39,686 bases of DNA from a virus, in the IMG/VR virus record IMGVR_UViG_3300028800_002447, positions 1 to 39,686 of that record; one strand, 5' to 3'. Below, one piece after another: positions 3,100 to 39,686 of this stretch; the first letter of the stretch is position 1; every line of letters begins with the position of its first letter. The notes below the pieces were generated by a model. That model was not told the origin of the DNA, did not search any database, and saw only the letters and a program-made list of their open reading frames with translations. The position numbers and the translations under genes were made by a program.

Positions 3100-4442
3100 T
3101 TCGCCTCCCACGGTTCGCCCGGATAGGGCCAAAGCTGTGAGGCGCGCGCTGCCGCAGCGGGTTGGGCAGCATTCGCGAGATCTTCAGTCCAATCCGGATC
3201 AGGCTGCGCCCATTGCCTGTCGAGCCATGCACGAACGCCGGGCGCTTCCTTGCTCTCGCCGAGGCGGGGGTCTTCAAGACGGCGTGTGAGTTCCTGCACG
3301 GCGCCTCGGATGGCTTGCCTGCGCGTCGGATACGTCGGTTCGCCCTCGTGCCATGAACACGGGCTGGAACCGCTTCCTGTGCCCATGCGATACGAAGTCG
3401 ACGAGATCCACTTCCCGATCTCGACCTGAGCGAGATGAATCTCGGCGGGGTGCGCCTGAAGACGCTTCGAAAGCGGTGCCTTGATCGTCTCGTGCCGGAC
3501 GTAGACGCCGTGCTCGTTCGGTTTGGAAACTGCGTATTTCCGCTTCTTCTCAGGCAGATCGAGCAGATCCGAGAACGGCCCGATTGCAGCGTGCACGCCC
3601 GAGATCGTGCCGGGAGAGAGTTTGCCGAACATCGGGTCGTGCAGCACGGACTGGAGTGCCTGCAAAAGTTGCTTTGCGCTCGCATCACTGATCTTCTTCG
3701 CCGCCGGCGCCGTATCGGGCTTTGCCAGATGCTTCTTCGTGACCTTGGCTTTGCCTGTGGCCTTCGCTTCTGCTGCGCTTTTCTGAAGCCGCTCCAGCGC
3801 TTTCTCGGGGCCGTGCCGGCGGATTTCCTCGATCGCGAGCGTGCCGGCGACCGTGCCTTCGCGCACAAGCGTGTGCAATCCGGCAGGCGCCGTCTCGAGC
3901 AGCGCAACATCGCGGACTGTCTGGTCGGTGATGTTTAGTCGCATGCAGATCGTCTTGACGTCGACGCCATGTACGGCGCGCAGCTCGGCAATCTTCTCGG
4001 CGAGTTCGAGCGGCGACGTGCGCTTGCTGTCGTTGCTCGTCAGGCCGCCGAAGATCATATTGACGCGATCGACCGACTTCGCGTCCAGCATGACGACGGG
4101 GATGAGACCGACATCGATGCCTGCCTTGATGGCGAAGCCGGCGCCGTGATAGCGGTGCTGACCTTTCCAGACGTACACATGGTCCTCGCCGTTGACCTTG
4201 CGGACATAGCAGTGCAGCGGCTGGCTCTTGTCGAATCCCTCGGTGGCGATCAGCTTGCCGATGTGTTTGGCCCAGGCGACATCGAGTGGCCGAACGTTGT
4301 CGCGTGGATCGTAGTGAAGCGCGTCGTAGGGGAGCATCCACAGGTCGGCCGATTTGCCACCGGCCGTCTTGACGGCAGCCTTCGTGTTGCCCGTAGCGAT
4401 CGGCTCGTCGAGCTGGAGCGGGCGGGTGCGCCTGTCGTTCAT
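3096..4442 (-). CDS. ParB/Srx-fold nuclease-like protein
   Basis: 448 residues. The N-terminal 130 residues fit the ParB N-terminal domain. A target-binding strand ends around DPRDNVRPL (45-53), and the conserved box appears as WKGQHRYHGAGFA at 92-104, where chromosomal ParB has G-E-R-R/H-R-x-x-A. A helix-turn-helix of KorB type follows (about 145-185, LELAEKIAEL then TDQTVRDVALL). Residues 205-260 are lysine/alanine rich, and the C-terminal 190 residues are not recognised. ParB-fold proteins bind CTP or nucleic acid and load on centromere-like sites; phage versions can be regulators or nucleases. No ParA is present, so plasmid-style partition is unlikely. It is the largest gene of the early left operon. 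Confidence 0.85.
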   Translation of the reverse strand: MNDRRTRPLQLDEPIATGNTKAAVKTAGGKSADLWMLPYDALHYDPRDNVRPLDVAWAKHIGKLIATEGFDKSQPLHCYVRKVNGEDHVYVWKGQHRYHGAGFAIKAGIDVGLIPVVMLDAKSVDRVNMIFGGLTSNDSKRTSPLELAEKIAELRAVHGVDVKTICMRLNITDQTVRDVALLETAPAGLHTLVREGTVAGTLAIEEIRRHGPEKALERLQKSAAEAKATGKAKVTKKHLAKPDTAPAAKKISDASAKQLLQALQSVLHDPMFGKLSPGTISGVHAAIGPFSDLLDLPEKKRKYAVSKPNEHGVYVRHETIKAPLSKRLQAHPAEIHLAQVEIGKWISSTSYRMGTGSGSSPCSWHEGEPTYPTRRQAIRGAVQELTRRLEDPRLGESKEAPGVRAWLDRQWAQPDPDWTEDLANAAQPAAAARASQLWPYPGEPWEAK

Positions 4443-8510: not shown

Positions 8511-9020
8511 ATGACGCGCAGATATAGCAATGCGAATTGGCTCGACGTGTTGTACACGTCGGTCCGCGATACGTCCGGCGGAGTGGTTGAGGCTGCGGCG
8601 TACCTCACGAATCGCCGCGGCCGAAGCATCACCAGCGAGGCGCTGCGCTTGAGACTGGCCGGACAGGGCGACCACCGCCTGTCGATGGAGATGTTCGAGC
8701 TGCTGATCGAATGGATGCAGGAACGCGGTCGTCCGGATGCACTGAATGCCGTGCATGCGCTCAACGAACGCTTCGACCTGATCGCGGCGCCGATCGAAAA
8801 CGACACCGAAACCGGCAGCGCGAACACCGTCGCGCTTCATACGCTCGATCTCGCTCGCCATACGGGTAAGGTGGCCGATGAGGTTCGTGCGGCACTTGCC
8901 GACGGCAAGATTACCCCGGTTGAAGCGGAGGCCATTGCAGCTGCTGCACGAGCCAGTCAGCGCATGCTCGACCGCCTTGTCCGAGCCGCGCGTCGCGCCT
9001 CACGCCGGGAGTCGCAGTGA
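8511..9020 (+). CDS. CII-type phage regulatory protein (CP76 family)
   Basis: 169 residues. The N-terminal half matches the phage regulatory CII family of temperate phages: NWLDVLYTSVRDTSGGVVEAAAYL is the typical opening, split here around residue 20. LRLRLAGQGDHRLSMEMFELLIEW follows near 44-66, where relatives have the NKVNP...LTLAEADRLI segment. The rest (about 110-169) is a long charged helix with AAAARASQRMLDRLVRAARR. Family members activate lysogeny genes or control early replication. The ATG at 8511 follows GGGGTG. It is the first gene of the replication block and its stop overlaps the GTG of the next gene. Confidence 0.75.
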   Translation: MTRRYSNANWLDVLYTSVRDTSGGVVEAAAYLTNRRGRSITSEALRLRLAGQGDHRLSMEMFELLIEWMQERGRPDALNAVHALNERFDLIAAPIENDTETGSANTVALHTLDLARHTGKVADEVRAALADGKITPVEAEAIAAAARASQRMLDRLVRAARRASRRESQ

Positions 9021-9757: not shown

Positions 9758-12478
9758 ATGGCAACACTCGACCAGATCCGTGCGCAGTTGATCGCGGCGG
9801 ACCACCCTGTGCCGTCCGCCGAACTCGTCATCAACGGCCAGCCGCAACGCTATGGTCCGAAGAAAAAATTCTGGTACTCGCTGCATGAGGTCGTGAAGGC
9901 CGGTCAGGTTATTGGCTATACCGGCGCTTTTGGCTTCTGGTCCGGCAACGATAACGGCGCTCAGGCGTTCGAATGGCAGGGCGAAACGCTGTCGCCTGAA
10001 GACGTCGCGGCCACTAAGGCCCGGCAGGACGCGATCGCGCGCGAGCAGGAAAACAAGCGGCAGCACGCGGCGAAGCTCGCGGCGAACCGAGCGCGGCAGC
10101 AGTGGCAGGAAGCGAGCGATGAAGGCTTGTCGGCATACCTGGAGCGCAAGCAGATCACGCCCGAAGGCGTGCGCTTTGCGGCCGATGGCGACACGCTTGT
10201 GCCGATGTTCCGGTACGACGAGAATTTCCGTCTCGTCGGCCTGCAGAAGATCACACCGAGCGGTGCGAAGCGCTTCAACAAGGGCATGGAGAAAAAGGGC
10301 GCCCTGTACCTGCTCGGTGAGCTGAACGACGACAGCAAAGTCGTGTTGATTGCCGAAGGCTACGCGACAGCCCGCTCGATCCGCATGGCAACCGAAGGTG
10401 CTGTGCCCGTGGTGATCTGCTTCGACGCCGGCAACATGTTTCCCGGCGCCGAGTACCTTCGTGCGCACTATCCCGACATTCACGTGATGATCTGCGCGGA
10501 CGATGACTGGGCGATCGAGCAGCGTTTGCGCGATCACCTCGCGGAGCGGTTTGGTTATGCGGATGCGTTCGAGATCGGCGGTGAGCCGATACTCGTCGAG
10601 GCGCACAAGACGTGGTACCGGGTTGCCGGCCGATGGAACACGGACGGCCACGGTGTCCAGTCGCTCGTTCTCACGTGGGGCAACGATGTGATGCCGGAAC
10701 GTGCGCAGCACTTCGAGAATGCCGGTCTGACGCACGCCTTCAAGGCGGCCGATCGCATCGGCAATGCGAGCGTGGTCTATCCGGTCTTCGCGGCGCGCGG
10801 CACGCGCAAGCTGACCGACTTCAATGACCTGCACGTCGACGAAGGGTTGCACGTCGTCAAGGCCCAGATCGAAACAGCGTTGCTGTATGAGCTGAGCCCG
10901 AAGGACGCCGGCAGTGATCATGCGCGGTATCTCGCCGCCGTCGAGCCGATCGTTGACCCGCTCTATGACAAGGCGGTCGAGCACGTGCGTGCGACGCGCA
11001 GCGCGTCGACCTCGAAGCTGCAGCGCACGCTGCAGATCGGCTACAACCGGGCCGCGCGGCTGCTCGAAGCGCTGGAGAAGGCGGGTATCGTGTCGCCGAT
11101 CGACGACGCCGGCCGCCGCCGCGTGCTGGCTTCCAACCCCACGTCCGCTGCCGCTGGATCGGTGGGAGGTATGGACGACGATCACGAGAACGGCGCGTAC
11201 ACGTGGGAGCAACGGCTGCGACGCACCGAGCGCGGGGCGCTGAAACCCGACCTCGACAACGTGATCGACATCCTGTCGCACAGTGACCGGTGGCAGGGCG
11301 TGCTTGCCTACGAGGAATTCTCGCAGAAGGTGCGCAAGCTGAGGGCGCCGCCGTACGAGGGCGGCACCGACGGCGAATGGCTCGAACACGACGACGTGCT
11401 GCTGACCGACTGGTTCGGGCGCACGTGGTCGATCACGCCGCGACGCGATGTGATCTGCGATGCGGTAGCGGCCGTCGCACGCCGCAACAGCTACCACGTC
11501 GTGCGCGACTATCTGCGCAAGCTGGAGTGGGACCAGAAGCCGCGCGTACGTACGTGGCTGGTCGACTACCTCGGCGTCGAAGATTCGCCGTATGCGCGTG
11601 CCGTGAGCTACAAGTGGCTGCTCGGCGCAGTCGGCCGCGTGATGGAGCCCGGCTGCAAGATGGACAACGTGCTGATCCTCGAAGGCGCGCAGGGCGCAGG
11701 CAAATCGCGGTCGATCAAGATGCTGTTCGGCGAGGAATGGTCGATGGAGGCCAACATCAGCCTGAACGACGCGGACGCGGTTGAAGTGCTCGGCGGCAAG
11801 TGGGCAATCGAGCTGGCCGAGCTGGACGCGCTGAACAAGTCCGACTCTGCAGCGGCGAAGCGCTGGATCACGACGCAGGCCGACGTCTACCGGCCGAAAT
11901 ATGCGCGGCGGGCGATCCGCGTGCCACGCCAGTTCGTCGTGGTCGGCACGGTGAACCTTGACGCGTACCTAAAGGATGAGACCGGAAACCGGCGCTACTG
12001 GCCAGTGCGTGTGCAGCCGTGGATCGCACTCGCATCGCTGCGATCCGATCGCGATCAGCTCTGGGCGGAAGCCTGTTCGATGTATAGCGAGTGGGCTGCG
12101 GAGAACGCGGAAGCGGGCGGCGAGTTGCCGACACCGTGGCAGGTGCTGGACGACGAGAAGGCAATGTTCGAGGTCGAGCAGGCTGCCCGCTACGAAGGCG
12201 ACATGTTCGAGTCGGTGATTGCCGAATTCGTCCTGCAGCGCGACAGCGTGACGATGGAAGACATCGCGTTCGACTGCCTGAAGATCGAAACCGCGTCGAA
12301 GATCACGAAGCCGGATCAGCGTCGTATTGGCGCCGCGATGAAAGCGCTCGGCTGGGAGCGTAAGCGGGAAACGAAGGGCGCACGTCGATGGTATTACGTG
12401 CGGCCGCCCGTACCGCCGATCCGACCCGCATCCGCGCCAGCCGCACCGCGTCCTGAGGACGACGATGCACCGCTGTAA
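9758..12478 (+). CDS. Phage primase-helicase (TOPRIM + VirE-like SF3 helicase)
   Basis: 906 residues. About 1-190 is a primase-associated region that includes a Lys/Gln-rich helix. Residues 190-265 are a TOPRIM fold: [17 protein letters not shown] supplies the catalytic Glu, and a DD pair (ICADDDW) follows. Residues 385-435 hold a helical DNA-binding stretch. The C-terminal half matches the virulence-associated E (VirE/DUF5906-type) helicase: Walker A GAQGAGKS at 643-650, the acidic box [10 protein letters not shown] near 683-692, and the arginine-finger region TGNRRYWPV at 742-750. It should prime and unwind DNA at the phage origin as one bifunctional protein. Long open frames on the opposite strand are codon-bias shadows. 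Confidence 0.9.
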
Positions 12479-12721: not shown

Positions 12722-13510
12722 GTGAAGATGATCGACGGCCTGAAAGAGCAAGCCGGGAGTGCGATGAGCGTGCGCAGTCAGCTCGGGGAAACGGTCGCTG
12801 ATCCGAAAGTCACTTTGGCGGCGCTCGCGTTCGCGAGCGACCTTGGGCGTTTGCTGTGGCGCATGAAGTACGGGCAGGACGTGAAGCGTTCCGGGCTGCA
12901 TCGGGCGGCACTGTTGCTCGCCGCTCGAATCCGTCAGCCGGGCCGGTTCGCGCGGTCGAAGTTCACGGGCCTGACGAACGCGCAGCGGTTCCAGCAGCGG
13001 CGCGGCGAGGTAGTCGAGCGCGAGCAATCCGACATCATTGAACGGTTCGCACACCGCGCGATCGTCGAATGGGTTGATGACGCGTGCCCACGCTGCGATG
13101 CACGTGGGACGATCGGGCGGACTGCTGAGCGCCGCTATTCGTGGGCAAGGTGCGATGCGTGCGACGGTGCCGGGACCACCGTGTCGGAAGAGCGGATACC
13201 GTTCGCGACGCGTCGCGATGGCTGCGGACCGCTCGTGCTGCGCGAGCGCGCACGCTGTGACGAGTGTTTGGGGCTTGGCCGTGTTCAGGTGGAGTGGGGC
13301 GACAGGCGCACGGGCCGCCAGATCTGTCCGGATTGCGGTGGATCGGGGCGGCGCCAGCCAAACGACGCGGGGCGCGCACAGGCCCTCGGTGTCTCGCTGG
13401 GCCATTACCGGACCAACTGGGCGCCGCTGTTCCACGGGGTGCTTGCCATGCTCGACGCCGTCGACGGTCGGGCCGAGGACACGATGCGGCAGCAACTCGT
13501 GAGGCGTTAG
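12722..13510 (+). CDS. Zinc-finger, Q-like late antiterminator candidate
   Basis: 262 residues from the GTG at 12722. The N-terminal 115 residues are helical and basic. Residues about 118-225 contain four DnaJ-type C-x-x-C-x-G-x-G-like motifs: CPRCDARG, CDACDGAG, CDECLGLG and CPDCGGSG, enough for two zinc sites. Antitermination Q proteins of lambdoid phages carry such DnaJ-like fingers. The position supports this: it is the last gene before the late operon, and a promoter, a leader of about 200 bases and a terminator follow at once, as in lambda Q-pR'-tR'. Q-like function is inference from fingers plus context; a DnaJ-like chaperone is less likely because no J domain is present. Confidence 0.65.
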   Translation: MKMIDGLKEQAGSAMSVRSQLGETVADPKVTLAALAFASDLGRLLWRMKYGQDVKRSGLHRAALLLAARIRQPGRFARSKFTGLTNAQRFQQRRGEVVEREQSDIIERFAHRAIVEWVDDACPRCDARGTIGRTAERRYSWARCDACDGAGTTVSEERIPFATRRDGCGPLVLRERARCDECLGLGRVQVEWGDRRTGRQICPDCGGSGRRQPNDAGRAQALGVSLGHYRTNWAPLFHGVLAMLDAVDGRAEDTMRQQLVRR

Positions 13511-13520
13511 CAGGATGGAC

Positions 13521-13550
13521 TTGCATATTGGCGCACGCTCATCCTATACT
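13521..13550 (+). promoter_or_regulatory. Candidate late promoter (pR'-like)
   Basis: TATACT at 13545-13550 (five of six matches to -10) lies 18 bases after TTGCAT at 13521-13526 (a weak -35). It begins 11 bases after the stop of the Q-like gene. Transcription would start near 13557. A weak -35 with a good -10 is common at late promoters controlled after initiation. Confidence 0.6.
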
Positions 13551-13556
13551 CCGCCC

Positions 13557-13755
13557 CAGTCGTCCTTTACCGCAATCACTGGGCGTCCTGGAGCGGTCGC
13601 AGCGTCGTACCGCAACCCTTTCCTTGCAGACGTACAGCATCGCGGGAGCGCCGCGACCTATACCGATAAAAGCCTGCAAGGACTCGTTTGGCCCCAGCTC
13701 GGCCCGACGAAACGTGAATACCAAAGCCTCGTGTGCGCAAGCCACGGGGCTTTTT
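13557..13755 (+). ncRNA. Predicted short late leader RNA
   Basis: The distance from the predicted start to the end of the T-run is about 199 bases and contains no convincing gene. Without antitermination this would be released as a short RNA, like the 194-nt lambda 6S RNA between pR' and tR'. The call is by analogy and depends on the promoter placement. Confidence 0.4.
13723..13755 (+). terminator. Leader terminator (tR'-like)
   Basis: AAAGCCTCGTG at 13723-13733 pairs with CACGGGGCTTT at 13743-13753 (one G-T pair), followed by TTTTT ending at 13755. It stands 33 bases upstream of the first late gene. It would block late transcription unless RNA polymerase is modified. Confidence 0.8.
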
Positions 13756-13788: not shown

Positions 13789-14595
13789 ATGGCAAATACG
13801 ACAATCGAGATCGACACGAGTGAACTGTCGCAGCGTCTTGCCGATGAAGTCGCGCGACAGTTGCCGTATGCCTCTTCGCTCGCATTGAACAGCATTGCCG
13901 ACAAGACCAAAGCGGCTCTCGTCGACACGATGGGCCGCGTGTTCGACAGGCCGACGCCGTACACGTTGAATGCGCTTTATGTGCGGCGCGCGACGAAGCA
14001 AAACCTTGAGGCGCAGGTGCGTTTCAAGGATGCGACGTCGAAGGGCACCGCCGCCTCAAAATACCTCGGGCCTGAAGTGTCCGGCGGGGCGCGATCGGTG
14101 AAGCGGTTCGAGCGAGCGCTGTCGTCGAATATCGGTCGCATCAGTGAGGTCATGCAACGGCTCGGCGTGACGAATTACTTCGTTCCCGGCACGGGCGCGC
14201 AGCTCGACGCTTACGGCAACATGGTGCGCGGCCAGTTCTCGAAGATCCTCTCCCAGCTCGCCGGCCAGAACGACCGTTACGCGAACGAGACACCCACATC
14301 GCGCAACCGGCGCGAGGGCAAGGCGGTCGGGCCGCGCAAGGTTCGGCCACGGCCACAGCCGCGCTACTTCATCGCCGGTCTGTACAAGGCACGGCACCTG
14401 GCGCCCGGTATCTGGATTCGCACTCCAATCGGGCGCGGCCAATGGGATGTGAAACCGGTGCTGATCGAGGCCAAAGCGGCGCCGCAGTACAGCGAGCGCT
14501 TCCCGTTCTACGAGACAGCCGAACGGGTCTTCGACGATATCGCAGCGCCCGAGATGGAGAAGGCCCTCGCGATCGCGTTGGGGAGTGCCTGGTAG
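13789..14595 (+). CDS. Hypothetical phage protein, possibly minor tail protein Z-like
   Basis: 268 residues from ATG 13789; the frame is open further upstream, but that part covers the leader and terminator. The opening (ELSQRLADEVARQLPYAS then LALNSIADKTKAALVDTM) and the following FDRPTPYTLNALYVRRAT resemble prophage minor tail Z-type proteins in general layout, with early helices and then a basic segment near 170-190 (RRKGK-like, rich in Arg/Pro). In lambda Z lies after FII, not before the terminase, so the position is odd. The similarity is weak; it could equally be an unrelated first late gene. No strong ribosome site. Confidence 0.6.
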   Translation: MANTTIEIDTSELSQRLADEVARQLPYASSLALNSIADKTKAALVDTMGRVFDRPTPYTLNALYVRRATKQNLEAQVRFKDATSKGTAASKYLGPEVSGGARSVKRFERALSSNIGRISEVMQRLGVTNYFVPGTGAQLDAYGNMVRGQFSKILSQLAGQNDRYANETPTSRNRREGKAVGPRKVRPRPQPRYFIAGLYKARHLAPGIWIRTPIGRGQWDVKPVLIEAKAAPQYSERFPFYETAERVFDDIAAPEMEKALAIALGSAW

Positions 14596-14708: not shown

Positions 14709-15278
14709 ATGCCAACACAAGCCGACATTGCGGCTCACCTTGGGATCAGTCAACAGGCTGTCTCCGGCCAGATGAACCGGCTCGAAATCGACTGGCGTAC
14801 CGCATCAATGGAAGCAATCCGACTGGCGTACATCGATCATCTGCGCGGCCTCGCTGCCGGCAACCGCAGCGAAAACGGCATCGATCTCGTGGCCGAGCGC
14901 GCGATGACCGAGCGCATCACGCGCGAACTAAAGCTGCTTGAGCTGGCTGAGAAGCGGAACCAGCTCGTGAACGCTGCTCAACTCGAAGCGGCTTACGGCC
15001 AGTTGGTCGATGCGTTCCGCGCCGAACTGCTGGCACTGCCCGAAAAGATCGTCGACGACATTCGCACGCTGTATGGGATCGACGTCGACGTGGACCTGGT
15101 CAATGAATATTTCGTCAACGCTCTCGCCGAGCTATCTGGACACGACGCAGGCGGTGAACGCACTGCTCGCGCGACTGCGCGCCCGGCTGACGCCACCGCT
15201 ACGGATGGGGACGACGGAGTGGTCCAGGCTCTTTCGTCGCCTGTCGGCGAAGAGTTCTGCGAAGGAGGGCCGCTATAA
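14709..15278 (+). CDS. Terminase small subunit (Nu1-like)
   Basis: 189 residues. It opens with a winged helix-turn-helix (TQADIAAHLGISQQAVSGQM, about 3-22) as in lambda Nu1, which recognises the cos site for packaging. A long helical region around ERAMTERITRELKLLELAEKR (about 64-82) serves dimerisation and contact with the large subunit, and an acidic, threonine-rich tail ends the protein. The ATG at 14709 follows a GGGGG-type site. It overlaps the large subunit by about 175 bases. The 113 bases before it contain only a small GTAC-T5-GTAC hairpin near 14668. A cos site must be nearby but cannot be located by eye. Confidence 0.85.
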   Translation: MPTQADIAAHLGISQQAVSGQMNRLEIDWRTASMEAIRLAYIDHLRGLAAGNRSENGIDLVAERAMTERITRELKLLELAEKRNQLVNAAQLEAAYGQLVDAFRAELLALPEKIVDDIRTLYGIDVDVDLVNEYFVNALAELSGHDAGGERTARATARPADATATDGDDGVVQALSSPVGEEFCEGGPL

Positions 15279-17265
15279 CCCGGAGCTGACGCCCTGGGTC
15301 TTGGGCATGCACGCGGCGCTCGACGACCCGACGATCCAGAAGGTGGTAGGCGAGAAGTCGGCCCAGATCGCGTGGACGGACGGCGTCATGATGAATTACA
15401 TCGGTAAGCGGATTCACACCGATCCATGCCCGATGATCGTGCTGTTCCCAAAGCTGAAGACGGCGCAGAGCTTCTATAAGGAAAAGCTCAAACCCGCGAT
15501 CGAGGCGACGCCTGTGTTGAGCGAGATTATTCCTGTCTCGAAGAAGCGCGACACGGACAACCTGTGGAATCACAAGGCGTTCCCGCGCGGCTATCTGAAG
15601 CTCGTCACGTCCAATGCACCGGACGACGTGAAGTCGACGTCGGCACCGGTCGTGATAGTCGAAGAGCCCGACGACACGAATGAGAACGTCAAGGATCAGG
15701 GCGACTCGATAACACTGCTCGAAGAGCGGACGAAGTCGTATTCGGATCGTCGACGCAAAGTAATTTTGGGCGGCACGCCGACGATCGATGGCTTCTCGCG
15801 GATCCATCAGGCTTATCAGGCATCCGATCAACGCGTCTATCTGGTGAAGTGTCCAGACTGCGGTGAGCGACACGAACTGGCTTTCGAGAACGTGCGTTGG
15901 TCGAGCGAGGCGCCGGTCGAGCACGAAGTGTTTGGCCGGGCGCAGCCGGAGACCGCGCACTATGTTTGCCCGCATTGCGGCTCGATCTGGAACGACTCGA
16001 AGAAGTTCCGCGCGGTGCTGCAGACTTCGCGTCTCGAAAACTTCGGGTGGGTTGCTACGGCGCATGCGCCGGGTGTAGCAGGCTTTCGTATCTGCGAGCT
16101 TGTCTCCGGGTTCCCGGGCTCACGCATGACGGTGCTCGTCCGCAAATATCTCGTCGCCATGCATGCGTTGAAGCAAGGCGATGACGCGAAGATGCGCTCG
16201 TTCGTGAACAACACGGAAGGGCGTCCGTACAAGGTGAAGACCGGTCTGCCGGAGCTGGAGGCGCTTGCGCAACGCGCGCTCGACTACAACGCATTCGGCG
16301 TGCCGTTCGGCGGCTTGCTGCTGACCGTCGGTATCGACGTGCAGCACGACCGTCTTTCGGTGCTCGTGCGCGCGTGGGGGCGGGGCGAGGAAAGCTGGCT
16401 TGTGGTGTGGGATGAAATCCACGGCAACGTACTTGAGCAGGGAGCGAATCCGCTCGTCGGCGGCGTATGGGGTGCTCTCACAACCATGCTGACGGCGGCC
16501 TATCGGCACGAAACGGGCGCAGCGCTGCGCATGCGCGCGGCGTCAATCGACTCAGGCGACGGCTCTACATCGGATGCGGTGTATCGGTATGTTCGCGCAG
16601 CGCGTGCAAACGGCATCCCGATCATGGCGATCAAGGGCGCGAAGGATGCGGGCGCAGAGATATTCCGCGCTCCATCGGACAAGTCGGTTGATGCGAACCA
16701 GGACAACACAAAGGCCACGAAATACGGTCTGAAGGTGTTCCCGGCGGGCGTGGGCCGGGCGAAGGATCTGATCCTCGGCAATCGCATGAAGCTGGACGGC
16801 GATGGCCCTGGGCGCATGCACTGGTATCGCGCGGTACGCGATGACTATCTGAAGCAACTGACCGCCGAGGTCAAGATGCCCGGCCGGCGCGGCGGCCGTC
16901 AGGTGTGGACGAAAAAGGCCGGTGCCCGCAACGAAGCGCTGGACTGCGAAGTGTATGCGCTCCACGCAGCACGCAGTCTCAAGACGCATCTTTTCACGGA
17001 AGCGCACTGGATGGTGGAACAGGCCCGCATGCAGCAGGGCGGCCTGTTCGAGACCGTGCCGGTGATTACCGCACTTCCTTCCGGTGACGCGGCGCCATTG
17101 GTGGCCGCGCTGCAGCCGGCGGTCGAGGCTGGCGAGCCTGTGCCTGCTGTTCCGCCGGTAGCGCCGCCTCCTCCTGCGCAGCGTCCAGTTGCGACCGTGC
17201 AACAACGGCCGCAGCCTGCACCGCGGACGGTTGTGCGATCGAAGTATCTCAGCAGAAGGCGATGA
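15103..17265 (+). CDS. Terminase large subunit (GpA family)
   Basis: 720 residues from ATG 15103, chosen because the alignable GpA region starts about 25 residues later (LRARLTPPLRMGTTEW matching the usual P-x-x-x-V-x-E-W opening). An ATG at 15204 is the alternative. The ATPase part holds a Walker A-like EKSAQIAWTDG around residue 80 and the Walker B VVIVEEPDD around residue 185. Two CxxC pairs (CPDCGERH and CPHCGSIW) form a zinc site near 250-295. The nuclease part has TVGIDVQHDR, a second acidic strand SIDSGDG, and a final ARNEALDCEVYALHAA. The C-terminal 70 residues are proline/alanine rich. It cuts and pumps DNA into the prohead. Confidence 0.93.
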   Translation: MNISSTLSPSYLDTTQAVNALLARLRARLTPPLRMGTTEWSRLFRRLSAKSSAKEGRYNPELTPWVLGMHAALDDPTIQKVVGEKSAQIAWTDGVMMNYIGKRIHTDPCPMIVLFPKLKTAQSFYKEKLKPAIEATPVLSEIIPVSKKRDTDNLWNHKAFPRGYLKLVTSNAPDDVKSTSAPVVIVEEPDDTNENVKDQGDSITLLEERTKSYSDRRRKVILGGTPTIDGFSRIHQAYQASDQRVYLVKCPDCGERHELAFENVRWSSEAPVEHEVFGRAQPETAHYVCPHCGSIWNDSKKFRAVLQTSRLENFGWVATAHAPGVAGFRICELVSGFPGSRMTVLVRKYLVAMHALKQGDDAKMRSFVNNTEGRPYKVKTGLPELEALAQRALDYNAFGVPFGGLLLTVGIDVQHDRLSVLVRAWGRGEESWLVVWDEIHGNVLEQGANPLVGGVWGALTTMLTAAYRHETGAALRMRAASIDSGDGSTSDAVYRYVRAARANGIPIMAIKGAKDAGAEIFRAPSDKSVDANQDNTKATKYGLKVFPAGVGRAKDLILGNRMKLDGDGPGRMHWYRAVRDDYLKQLTAEVKMPGRRGGRQVWTKKAGARNEALDCEVYALHAARSLKTHLFTEAHWMVEQARMQQGGLFETVPVITALPSGDAAPLVAALQPAVEAGEPVPAVPPVAPPPPAQRPVATVQQRPQPAPRTVVRSKYLSRRR

Positions 17266-38483: not shown

Positions 38484-39161
38484 ATGTGCACGAACTATGC
38501 AGCCGCACGCCGCGACTACCTTTTCAGGCACTACGGTATTGAGCCGCCCGAAAGCCCCTGGCGAGACGAGATCTACAAGGATTACGCCGCGCCGATCATT
38601 CGTCGCGTTGAAGGCGAGAGACGTGCAGATCTTGCGACGTTCGGGATGGTTCCGCGCAAGCACATTCCCGATGGCGTGCGGGCATTCGATACGATGAATG
38701 CGCGGGCGGAGACGGTTAGGGAGCGGCGCAGTTTTAGCGGTGCGTGGAAAAAGCTGCAGCTCGCGTTGATTCCGTGCGAAGCGTTCTACGAACCGAACTA
38801 TGAAACCGGCAAGGCAGTGCGATGGCGCATCGGCATGGCAGACGGCGCACCGTTTGCCGTCGCTGGCCTCTGGCGGGAATGGAACGAGCCAGAAGGGAAA
38901 GCGTGGTCGTTCACGATGCTTACGGTCAACGCTGACCATCATCCGCTCATGAGGCAGTTCCATAAGCCAGGCGACGAGAAGCGTTCGGTCGTGATCGTGC
39001 CGCCCGGCGAATACTCCAGCTGGCTCGCGGCTCGATCTACCGATGAGGCCCGTTCGTTTCTCAACCTGTTCCCAGCTGAGGCGATGCAAGCCGTTGCGCA
39101 GCCCGCGCCGCCGCGAACGGCAAAGGCAGCGGCGAAGCCCCCGGGCGACGCGGTGTCGTGA
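38484..39161 (+). CDS. SRAP-domain abasic-site protein (YedK/HMCES family)
   Basis: 225 residues from ATG 38484 with TGGAG upstream; this start places the catalytic Cys at position 2 (MCTNYAAARRD), as the family requires after removal of Met. Other conserved features are AFDTMNARAETVRERRSF with the DNA-binding Asn (about residues 72-89), PCEAFYEP with the Glu near 107, and MLTVNADHHPLMRQFHKP with the conserved His. SRAP proteins link covalently to abasic sites in single-stranded DNA and protect replication forks. The Pro/Ala C-terminal tail is unusual but outside the domain. A TATGAT box lies at 38453-38458, but no matching -35 was found. Confidence 0.93.
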   Translation: MCTNYAAARRDYLFRHYGIEPPESPWRDEIYKDYAAPIIRRVEGERRADLATFGMVPRKHIPDGVRAFDTMNARAETVRERRSFSGAWKKLQLALIPCEAFYEPNYETGKAVRWRIGMADGAPFAVAGLWREWNEPEGKAWSFTMLTVNADHHPLMRQFHKPGDEKRSVVIVPPGEYSSWLAARSTDEARSFLNLFPAEAMQAVAQPAPPRTAKAAAKPPGDAVS

Positions 39162-39167
39162 CGTGCC

Positions 39168-39686
39168 TCATCGGCGATCGCCAGTGATCGGACCGATGCG
39201 CGCCATCTCCCGTTGTAGGCGCCTCCGGATGCGCGCGAGCGATCTTCGGGCATCGTCGATCGTCGCGCCATCCTTTCGCATGTACCAATACTCTTCTGAG
39301 GCGACCGCTTCGAGTTCGGCGATTGCATACCGCCCGGTCTGAATCTCCAGCGCGAGCCGGCGAACATCCTCGTGGGGGTGCTCGCTCCAAATGCGGCGCA
39401 GTTCCGCGTACAGTGGGGTGACGAAAGGCGGCAGACCGAAACGGGAGCGTTCGGCGCGCACGCGCCGCTCGCGTGTCCAGTCGACGTCGGCGGTGGGCGG
39501 CTCGACGGCGGGGCCGCTTGATCGATTGCGGTCACGGCGCGTGTGCTCGATCCGGTATGACCGTTGGTCGTCGTAAGCGTGCCAGTCCGTGCGCGCCTCG
39601 TCCTCGGTCATCCACAACGGCGTCTGCTCGAATCGGTTGGCAAATTCGTTCCAGTACGCCCAGCGGTACTCCCAAAGCGGCTCCAT
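39168..39686 (-). CDS. Hypothetical protein at window edge
   Basis: 172 residues. It starts with ATG at the last bases of the window, so the true start may lie here or further out. The N-terminus is aromatic (MEPLWEYRWAYWNEFANRF), the middle is arginine-rich and probably disordered, and residues about 120-165 form a charged helix (DARRSLARIRRRLQREMARI). No family recognised. It converges with the SRAP gene, with six bases between the stops. Confidence 0.6.
   Translation of the reverse strand: MEPLWEYRWAYWNEFANRFEQTPLWMTEDEARTDWHAYDDQRSYRIEHTRRDRNRSSGPAVEPPTADVDWTRERRVRAERSRFGLPPFVTPLYAELRRIWSEHPHEDVRRLALEIQTGRYAIAELEAVASEEYWYMRKDGATIDDARRSLARIRRRLQREMARIGPITGDRR

Follow-up and report, generated by a model that had tools for sequence, protein, structure and literature searches.

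The locus examined here raises two questions: whether a gene for a zinc protein and the short noncoding stretch behind it form the late-gene switch of a prophage, and whether the RNA made from that stretch is anything beyond the transcript on which such a switch acts. The locus lies in a 39,686-base IMG/VR-type virus record, analyzed over its full length and called the window below. The sequence-only reading of this DNA had proposed a switch of the lambda Q, pR' and tR' kind; that part is supported by the family of the Q protein, the order of the elements and the late genes, while a conserved, structured leader was absent from it. Overall, we regard the locus as a lambda-type late-gene switch with a conserved structured leader RNA in a Burkholderia-type prophage, with a probability of about 0.75.

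The putative antiterminator was assigned by family and by fold. PHROG_127 ("anti-termination protein Q-like") matched the window protein with an E value of 4.5e-19 over profile positions 29 to 251 of 253, i.e., nearly its full length, and lambda Q (from NC_001416) matched PHROG_127 too (E 7.6e-83). An AlphaFold2 model built from 21 homologues, with a mean pLDDT of 78, was compared with the PDB using Foldseek, and the six best matches were all lambda Q (entries 7ubm, 7ubn, 4mo1, 7ubl, and 7ubj), at a probability of 1.00 and with a best E value of only 1.4e-3, which we count as a weak point of the identification. No Pfam Q family matched the window protein at E 0.1, reflecting a detection limit and not a defining trait, and Pfam reported just a DnaJ-type zinc stretch along with weaker zinc families. 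Likewise, phmmer against the PDB retrieved nothing but the zinc stretch of anti-TRAP (E 0.41), and tblastn and blastn against named phage records and plasmids yielded nothing useful, in a set from which near records may be missing. The open reading frame (ORF) opens at a GTG at 12722 and ends at 13510 on the plus strand, and the start conserved among relatives (alignment A3) is the ATG at 12728, suggesting that the gene itself spans 12728 to 13510. These results indicated that the product of 12722 to 13510 is a lambda-Q-type antiterminator by family and modeled fold, with antitermination as its predicted activity.

Four DnaJ-like CXXC zinc motifs are present in this Q at 13085 to 13336 on the plus strand (CPRC at 13085, CDAC at 13151, CDEC at 13256, and CPDC at 13325), for which Pfam DnaJ_CXXCXGXG gave an E value of 6e-6, under the cut-off of that family. 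The earlier proposal that this four-motif zinc protein is the Q of the phage was thus borne out by the PHROG_127 match and by the lambda Q structures. Lambda Q has two CXXC motifs, whereas the Qs studied here usually have four; close relatives with two carry the same kind of leader, and therefore the four motifs are not essential. A tie between motif number and the two leader classes described below was rejected, as two-motif Qs occur with both classes (a single one with class B). The likeness to TIGR02642 and other DnaJ-finger phage proteins lies in the CXXCXGXG zinc region (E 1e-5), and the window Q scores far under the TIGR02642 cut-off, with the match confined to the zinc stretch.

Immediately downstream of Q, the window carries a putative promoter on the plus strand, consisting of a −35 element TTGCAT (13521 to 13526) that starts 11 bases 3′ of the Q stop and is a poor sigma-70 match, an 18-base spacer (13527 to 13544), and a −10 element TATACT (13545 to 13550) recognized from the sequence and from comparison of Q clusters. 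Transcription would be expected to start at about 13557, as placed from the −10 element. A tR'-like intrinsic terminator occupies 13723 to 13755 on the same strand (stem 13723 to 13753, T5 at 13751 to 13755). Its hairpin, at −20.3 kcal/mol, is the fourth best on the plus strand and is equaled by the best hairpins of random sequence, and a consensus scan of the window alone did not detect a sigma-70 promoter and gave a terminator count below that of shuffled sequences. Since neither element exceeded chance in the window alone, both were tested by comparison with relatives. Among 39 Q clusters, whose hexamers were picked automatically with the picking going astray in a minority, the pattern was TTGCA(A/T), a spacer of 17 to 18 bases, and TATA(C/T)T or TAAACT, usually 2 to 11 bases after the Q stop, and TTGCA(A/T) was conserved a few bases past that stop in most of them. 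About 90 distinct loci share this succession of Q stop, promoter, leader, and terminator. Thus, the coordinates proposed earlier for a promoter within 11 bases of Q proved right, and so did a leader of about 199 nt closed by a T5 terminator, here 13557 to 13755, with an intrinsic terminator kept in 85 of 91 loci by an automatic test.

The genes behind the terminator are those of late functions, again as proposed. The first encodes a minor tail protein of family phrog_1924 (13789 to 14595, plus strand; E 3.9e-64), and the terminase small (14709 to 15278) and large (ORF 15010 to 17265) subunit genes follow at 14709 to 17265 on the same strand (phrog_57, E 3e-21; GpA ATPase and nuclease domains). 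In most relatives with tested downstream genes, the leader precedes genes for late head or packaging functions or HNH genes. The locus therefore shares with the lambda Q/pR'/6S leader/tR' region its Q family (PHROG_127), the gene order, a leader of about 200 nt, and an intrinsic terminator before the late genes; it differs in that lysis genes come first in the lambda late operon, while head and packaging genes come first here. The close match to the 194-nt lambda leader, which had been offered as evidence, carries no weight, because leader-region lengths vary (163 to 204 nt from the −10 element to the T run). Elsewhere in the window, 8511 to 9020 encodes a CII-like activator (phrog_101, E 1.7e-21; Phage_CP76, E 2e-9), in keeping with a temperate lifestyle. 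The Primase/VapE-like helicase ORF at 9758 to 12478 is unusual in that its Toprim and helicase parts are separated by an FtsK gamma domain (PF09397, E 1.2e-22, residues 400 to 458). At the left end, the product of 1 to 645 resembles, by eye, a YicG/TRIC-type membrane protein of the host, suggesting that this end is the host flank of an integrated prophage.

The Q proteins of lambdoid phages bind at the promoter, are loaded onto the paused polymerase, and then suppress terminators (PMC6606751, PMC7171158); their binding element lies between −35 and −10, and a pause element resembling a −10 box is located in the initially transcribed region (PMC6606751). Compared with lambda, the corresponding elements here are candidates only. 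Column counts over the 39 Q clusters revealed a conserved CCAAGA in the 5′ half of the spacer, which, judging by its position, may be where Q binds; at this place the window has ATTGGCG instead. Similarly, TTTAC (13566 to 13570, plus strand; +10 to +14), a weak −10 match conserved in the alignments of most relatives, could be a candidate sigma-dependent pause element.

The leaders follow a common plan: a 5′ hairpin (P1), a second hairpin with a C-bulged or mismatched stem (P2), a central domain (P3) that occurs in two forms, and a last hairpin (P4). Class A leaders are about 165 to 170 nt long with a short P3, and class B leaders, including that of the window, are about 195 to 205 nt long with a 9-bp P3 enclosing an additional hairpin (P3a). 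In the class B leader of the window (13557 to 13755, plus strand, as are all its helices), P1 spans 13562 to 13584 (13562 to 13565 paired with 13581 to 13584) and holds the TTTAC in its loop, while P2 spans 13593 to 13613 and consists of GCGGT/ACCGC, an extra C, then a G-U and a C-G pair, and a hexaloop. P3 spans 13621 to 13682 (13621 to 13629 paired with 13674 to 13682), with P3a, found in class B only, at 13640 to 13656 (13640 to 13645 paired with 13651 to 13656), and P4 spans 13684 to 13710, placed by class B pair counts and the minimum free energy fold of the window leader. That fold contains the consensus helices, with a z score of −2.3. Model R1, built from class A leaders only, matched the window leader with an E value of 3.9e-6 and found all class B leaders tried, the clearest indication that the two classes are one family. 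Model R2, whose training included the window leader, matched it as well; a second R2 match in the window, at 39040 to 39172 (E 0.34), was judged to be chance. Chimeric leaders also occur, combining a class B-type P2 with a class A P3 (e.g., L003, L012, and L024) or the reverse (L093).

Compensatory changes were then counted against shuffled and slid controls. In alignment A1 (class B, MAFFT), made without fitting to any model, 91.6% of cells were paired, and 12 pairs were changed on both sides versus 4.0 in shuffles, with slid versions reaching at most 46% pairing. For 26 class B leaders, the values were 88% paired and 15 pairs changed on both sides versus 6.6 in shuffles (slid controls at most 52% paired), and for 36 class A leaders, 93% paired and 51 cells changed on both sides versus 13.1. 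In class A, changes on both sides were found in all four P1 pairs and in 4 of 6 P3 pairs; in class B, the P3 pairing reads UCCUUGCAG/CUGCAAGGA versus UCCCGGCAG/CUGCCGGGA in relatives, P3a shows compensatory changes, and P2 reads GCGGT/ACCGC in the window versus GCGCC/GGCGC elsewhere. No P2 pair was changed on both sides among the 36 class A leaders; since P2 hardly varies there, its pairing rests on class B. RNAalifold, run on alignments A7 and A8, which were fitted to the models, recovered P3 and P3a in A7 and P1 and P3 in A8, missed P2 and most of P4 in A7, and placed P2 in another register in A8, so the pair counts from A1 and A7 are the basis for P2 and P4 as described. The compensatory changes back the pairing of P1 and P3/P3a, together with part of P2 and P4. 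They also bear on whether the conserved core is a DNA element, either a cos site or a protein binding site, as its position near terminase genes in some phages and the nearly invariant P2 of class A might suggest. We regard this as very improbable, given the paired changes in P1, P3, and P3a, a downstream gene that varies (minor tail, HNH endonuclease, or terminase small subunit), and a leader that stays beside Q and not at a fixed distance from terminase; the cos-site form was rejected on the covariation and the changing downstream genes.

The association with Q was evaluated from both sides. All 24 loci found via the Q protein have the promoter and leader after the Q stop, with the terminator following in nearly all of them (L019 is cut short). 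A search with the exact class A core string retrieved 48 stretches, which showed the promoter and a Q-like ORF where the flanking DNA sufficed, the ORF ending about 72 nt upstream (with a longer gap in L033). Using the Q profile alone, in a search not conditioned on the RNA and matched to leaders by coordinates, we detected 43 Q loci in 398 Burkholderiaceae genomes, 41 of them with a leader directly downstream; in the loci that were read, the leader came after a promoter and nearly always ended in a terminator. Of the other two, G224 has its leader about 1.1 kb from Q, separated by a 331-aa ORF of unknown family on the opposite strand (L108:4391-5386), and G039 has a degenerate Q and no leader. 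R1 had matches in 37 of 399 Burkholderiaceae genomes; a further sample of 399, drawn at the order level, gave matches in only two, both already in the family sample. R2 added two places beyond R1. Thus, as judged by comparative evidence, the leaders form a conserved family of structured RNAs that is under selection, each tied to its Q gene. That a Q-like ORF happens to be followed by random promoter-like and terminator-like sequence, as the lack of excess in the single-sequence scans would allow, is scarcely credible for an arrangement recurring in about 90 loci with covariation.

Four leaders lacking Q were found, and they resemble remnants: G393:C126:27159, without promoter and P1; that of G233, in a decayed prophage; and those of G336 and G178. 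On G393:C126, a second, promoterless class B leader with terminator (L174:3160-3289, minus strand) lies about 15 kb from an intact Q-leader unit. In the host genomes G336 and G178, the leader-like RNA (L109:3975-4095 and L110:4221-4348, both minus strand) is upstream of a trypsin-like peptidase gene (3201-3818 and 3452-4078, respectively, minus strand), without Q or a clear promoter and outside recognizable phage genes; these may be either prophage remnants or a captured leader. In L019, L037, and L073, the leader is truncated once P4 has begun, or unrelated sequence takes the place of its 3′ part and terminator; these points may be recombination joints or prophage ends. L048 and L050, which are within the 85 of 91 loci, have an unrelated terminator hairpin at the same place.

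By homology with lambda, polymerase would start at about 13557 with or without Q. When Q is lacking, it would stop at the terminator (13723 to 13755) and release a folded RNA of about 199 nt; as Q accumulates, it would be loaded at the promoter and read-through into the head and packaging genes would follow. P2 to P4 would be made only after the expected Q-loading step and should therefore act later. The retention of a terminator, even by replacement, favors a role for the terminated RNA.

P2 is nearly invariant in class A. In pairs of class A loci whose Qs are 15 to 35% identical, the 28 nt of P2 including its loop are 96% identical, a figure partly conditioned because many class A loci were found by the exact core or by R1, while third codon positions are 36% identical and the promoter and downstream stretches flanking P2 are at background. 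Among the loci found by Q only (L002 to L025), about half carry the same class A core. It is conceivable that the folds serve by shape alone, shielding the late mRNA at its 5′ end or keeping the leader from disturbing Q loading with no specific partner; the strong hairpins and the freely changing sequences of P1 and P4 would fit, but such a role does not require about 28 nt, loop included, to stay 96% identical at saturating Q divergence, and we consider it quite unlikely. For class A, we tentatively prefer, at somewhat below even odds, that the P2-P3 core has as its partner a conserved host component, not Q, and that the terminated form is a stand-alone RNA of lysogens, because the core lies downstream of the expected Q loading, remains constant while Q diverges, and keeps its terminator. 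Class B P2 loops vary, so the argument for a host partner is limited to class A.

Cis-acting antitermination RNAs are known, namely, the HK022 put RNA and the EAR element. The leader might act in the same manner, folding behind the polymerase and, alone or with Q, making the elongation complex resistant to termination. This is the main rival to a role for the terminated RNA, though it appears unlikely to us. In its favor, the leader invariably has a promoter before it and a terminator behind it and is linked to Q, copies standing alone proved to be remnants and none was intact, and put RNA is a precedent for a structured phage RNA acting on RNA polymerase (PMC9378689). Against it, self-sufficient antitermination would defeat the terminator just past P4 and turn on the late genes in lysogens. 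Moreover, put serves early operons without Q, unlike the leader here, and R1 matched neither the lambda late region nor, up to E 10, the HK022 genome (NC_002166). Finally, the Qs of L003 and L014 are 90% identical and yet carry different P3 forms, which also disfavors recognition of P3 by a specific Q.

A host partner for class A remains our preferred reading, and precedent for a lysogen RNA exists in StxS of Shiga-toxin phages, an RNA derived from phage regulation that has host targets and acts in lysogens (PMC12197685). The pR' regions of those phages are reported to be heterogeneous (PMC6266700), whereas here a structured family is common to nearly all Q loci of the clade. Rfam 15 contained no family matching the leader, giving only chance-level miRNA and lncRNA matches. 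Burkholderiales-1, a candidate structured RNA of Burkholderiales, is listed without an Rfam accession in the table of a 2010 paper by Weinberg (PMC2864571); subject to comparison with this candidate, the leader appears, provisionally, to be a new RNA family. The late switch itself is of an already known kind, and it is the conserved leader RNA that appears new.

Leader transcripts from late promoters under Q control are commonly regarded as by-products of the switch. More speculatively, the leader may represent a new family of phage RNAs that lysogens transcribe from the late promoter; by binding a conserved host component, it would serve across Burkholderiaceae prophages as a selected regulator that controls the host or superinfecting phages. 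If so, the candidate partners would be RNA polymerase, an RNA chaperone, or a host mRNA. Because the central domain comes in two interchangeable forms and the class A hairpin is nearly invariant, a function of its own for a pR' leader becomes directly testable, and the late switch is identified for a large group of Burkholderiaceae prophages whose Qs Pfam misses.
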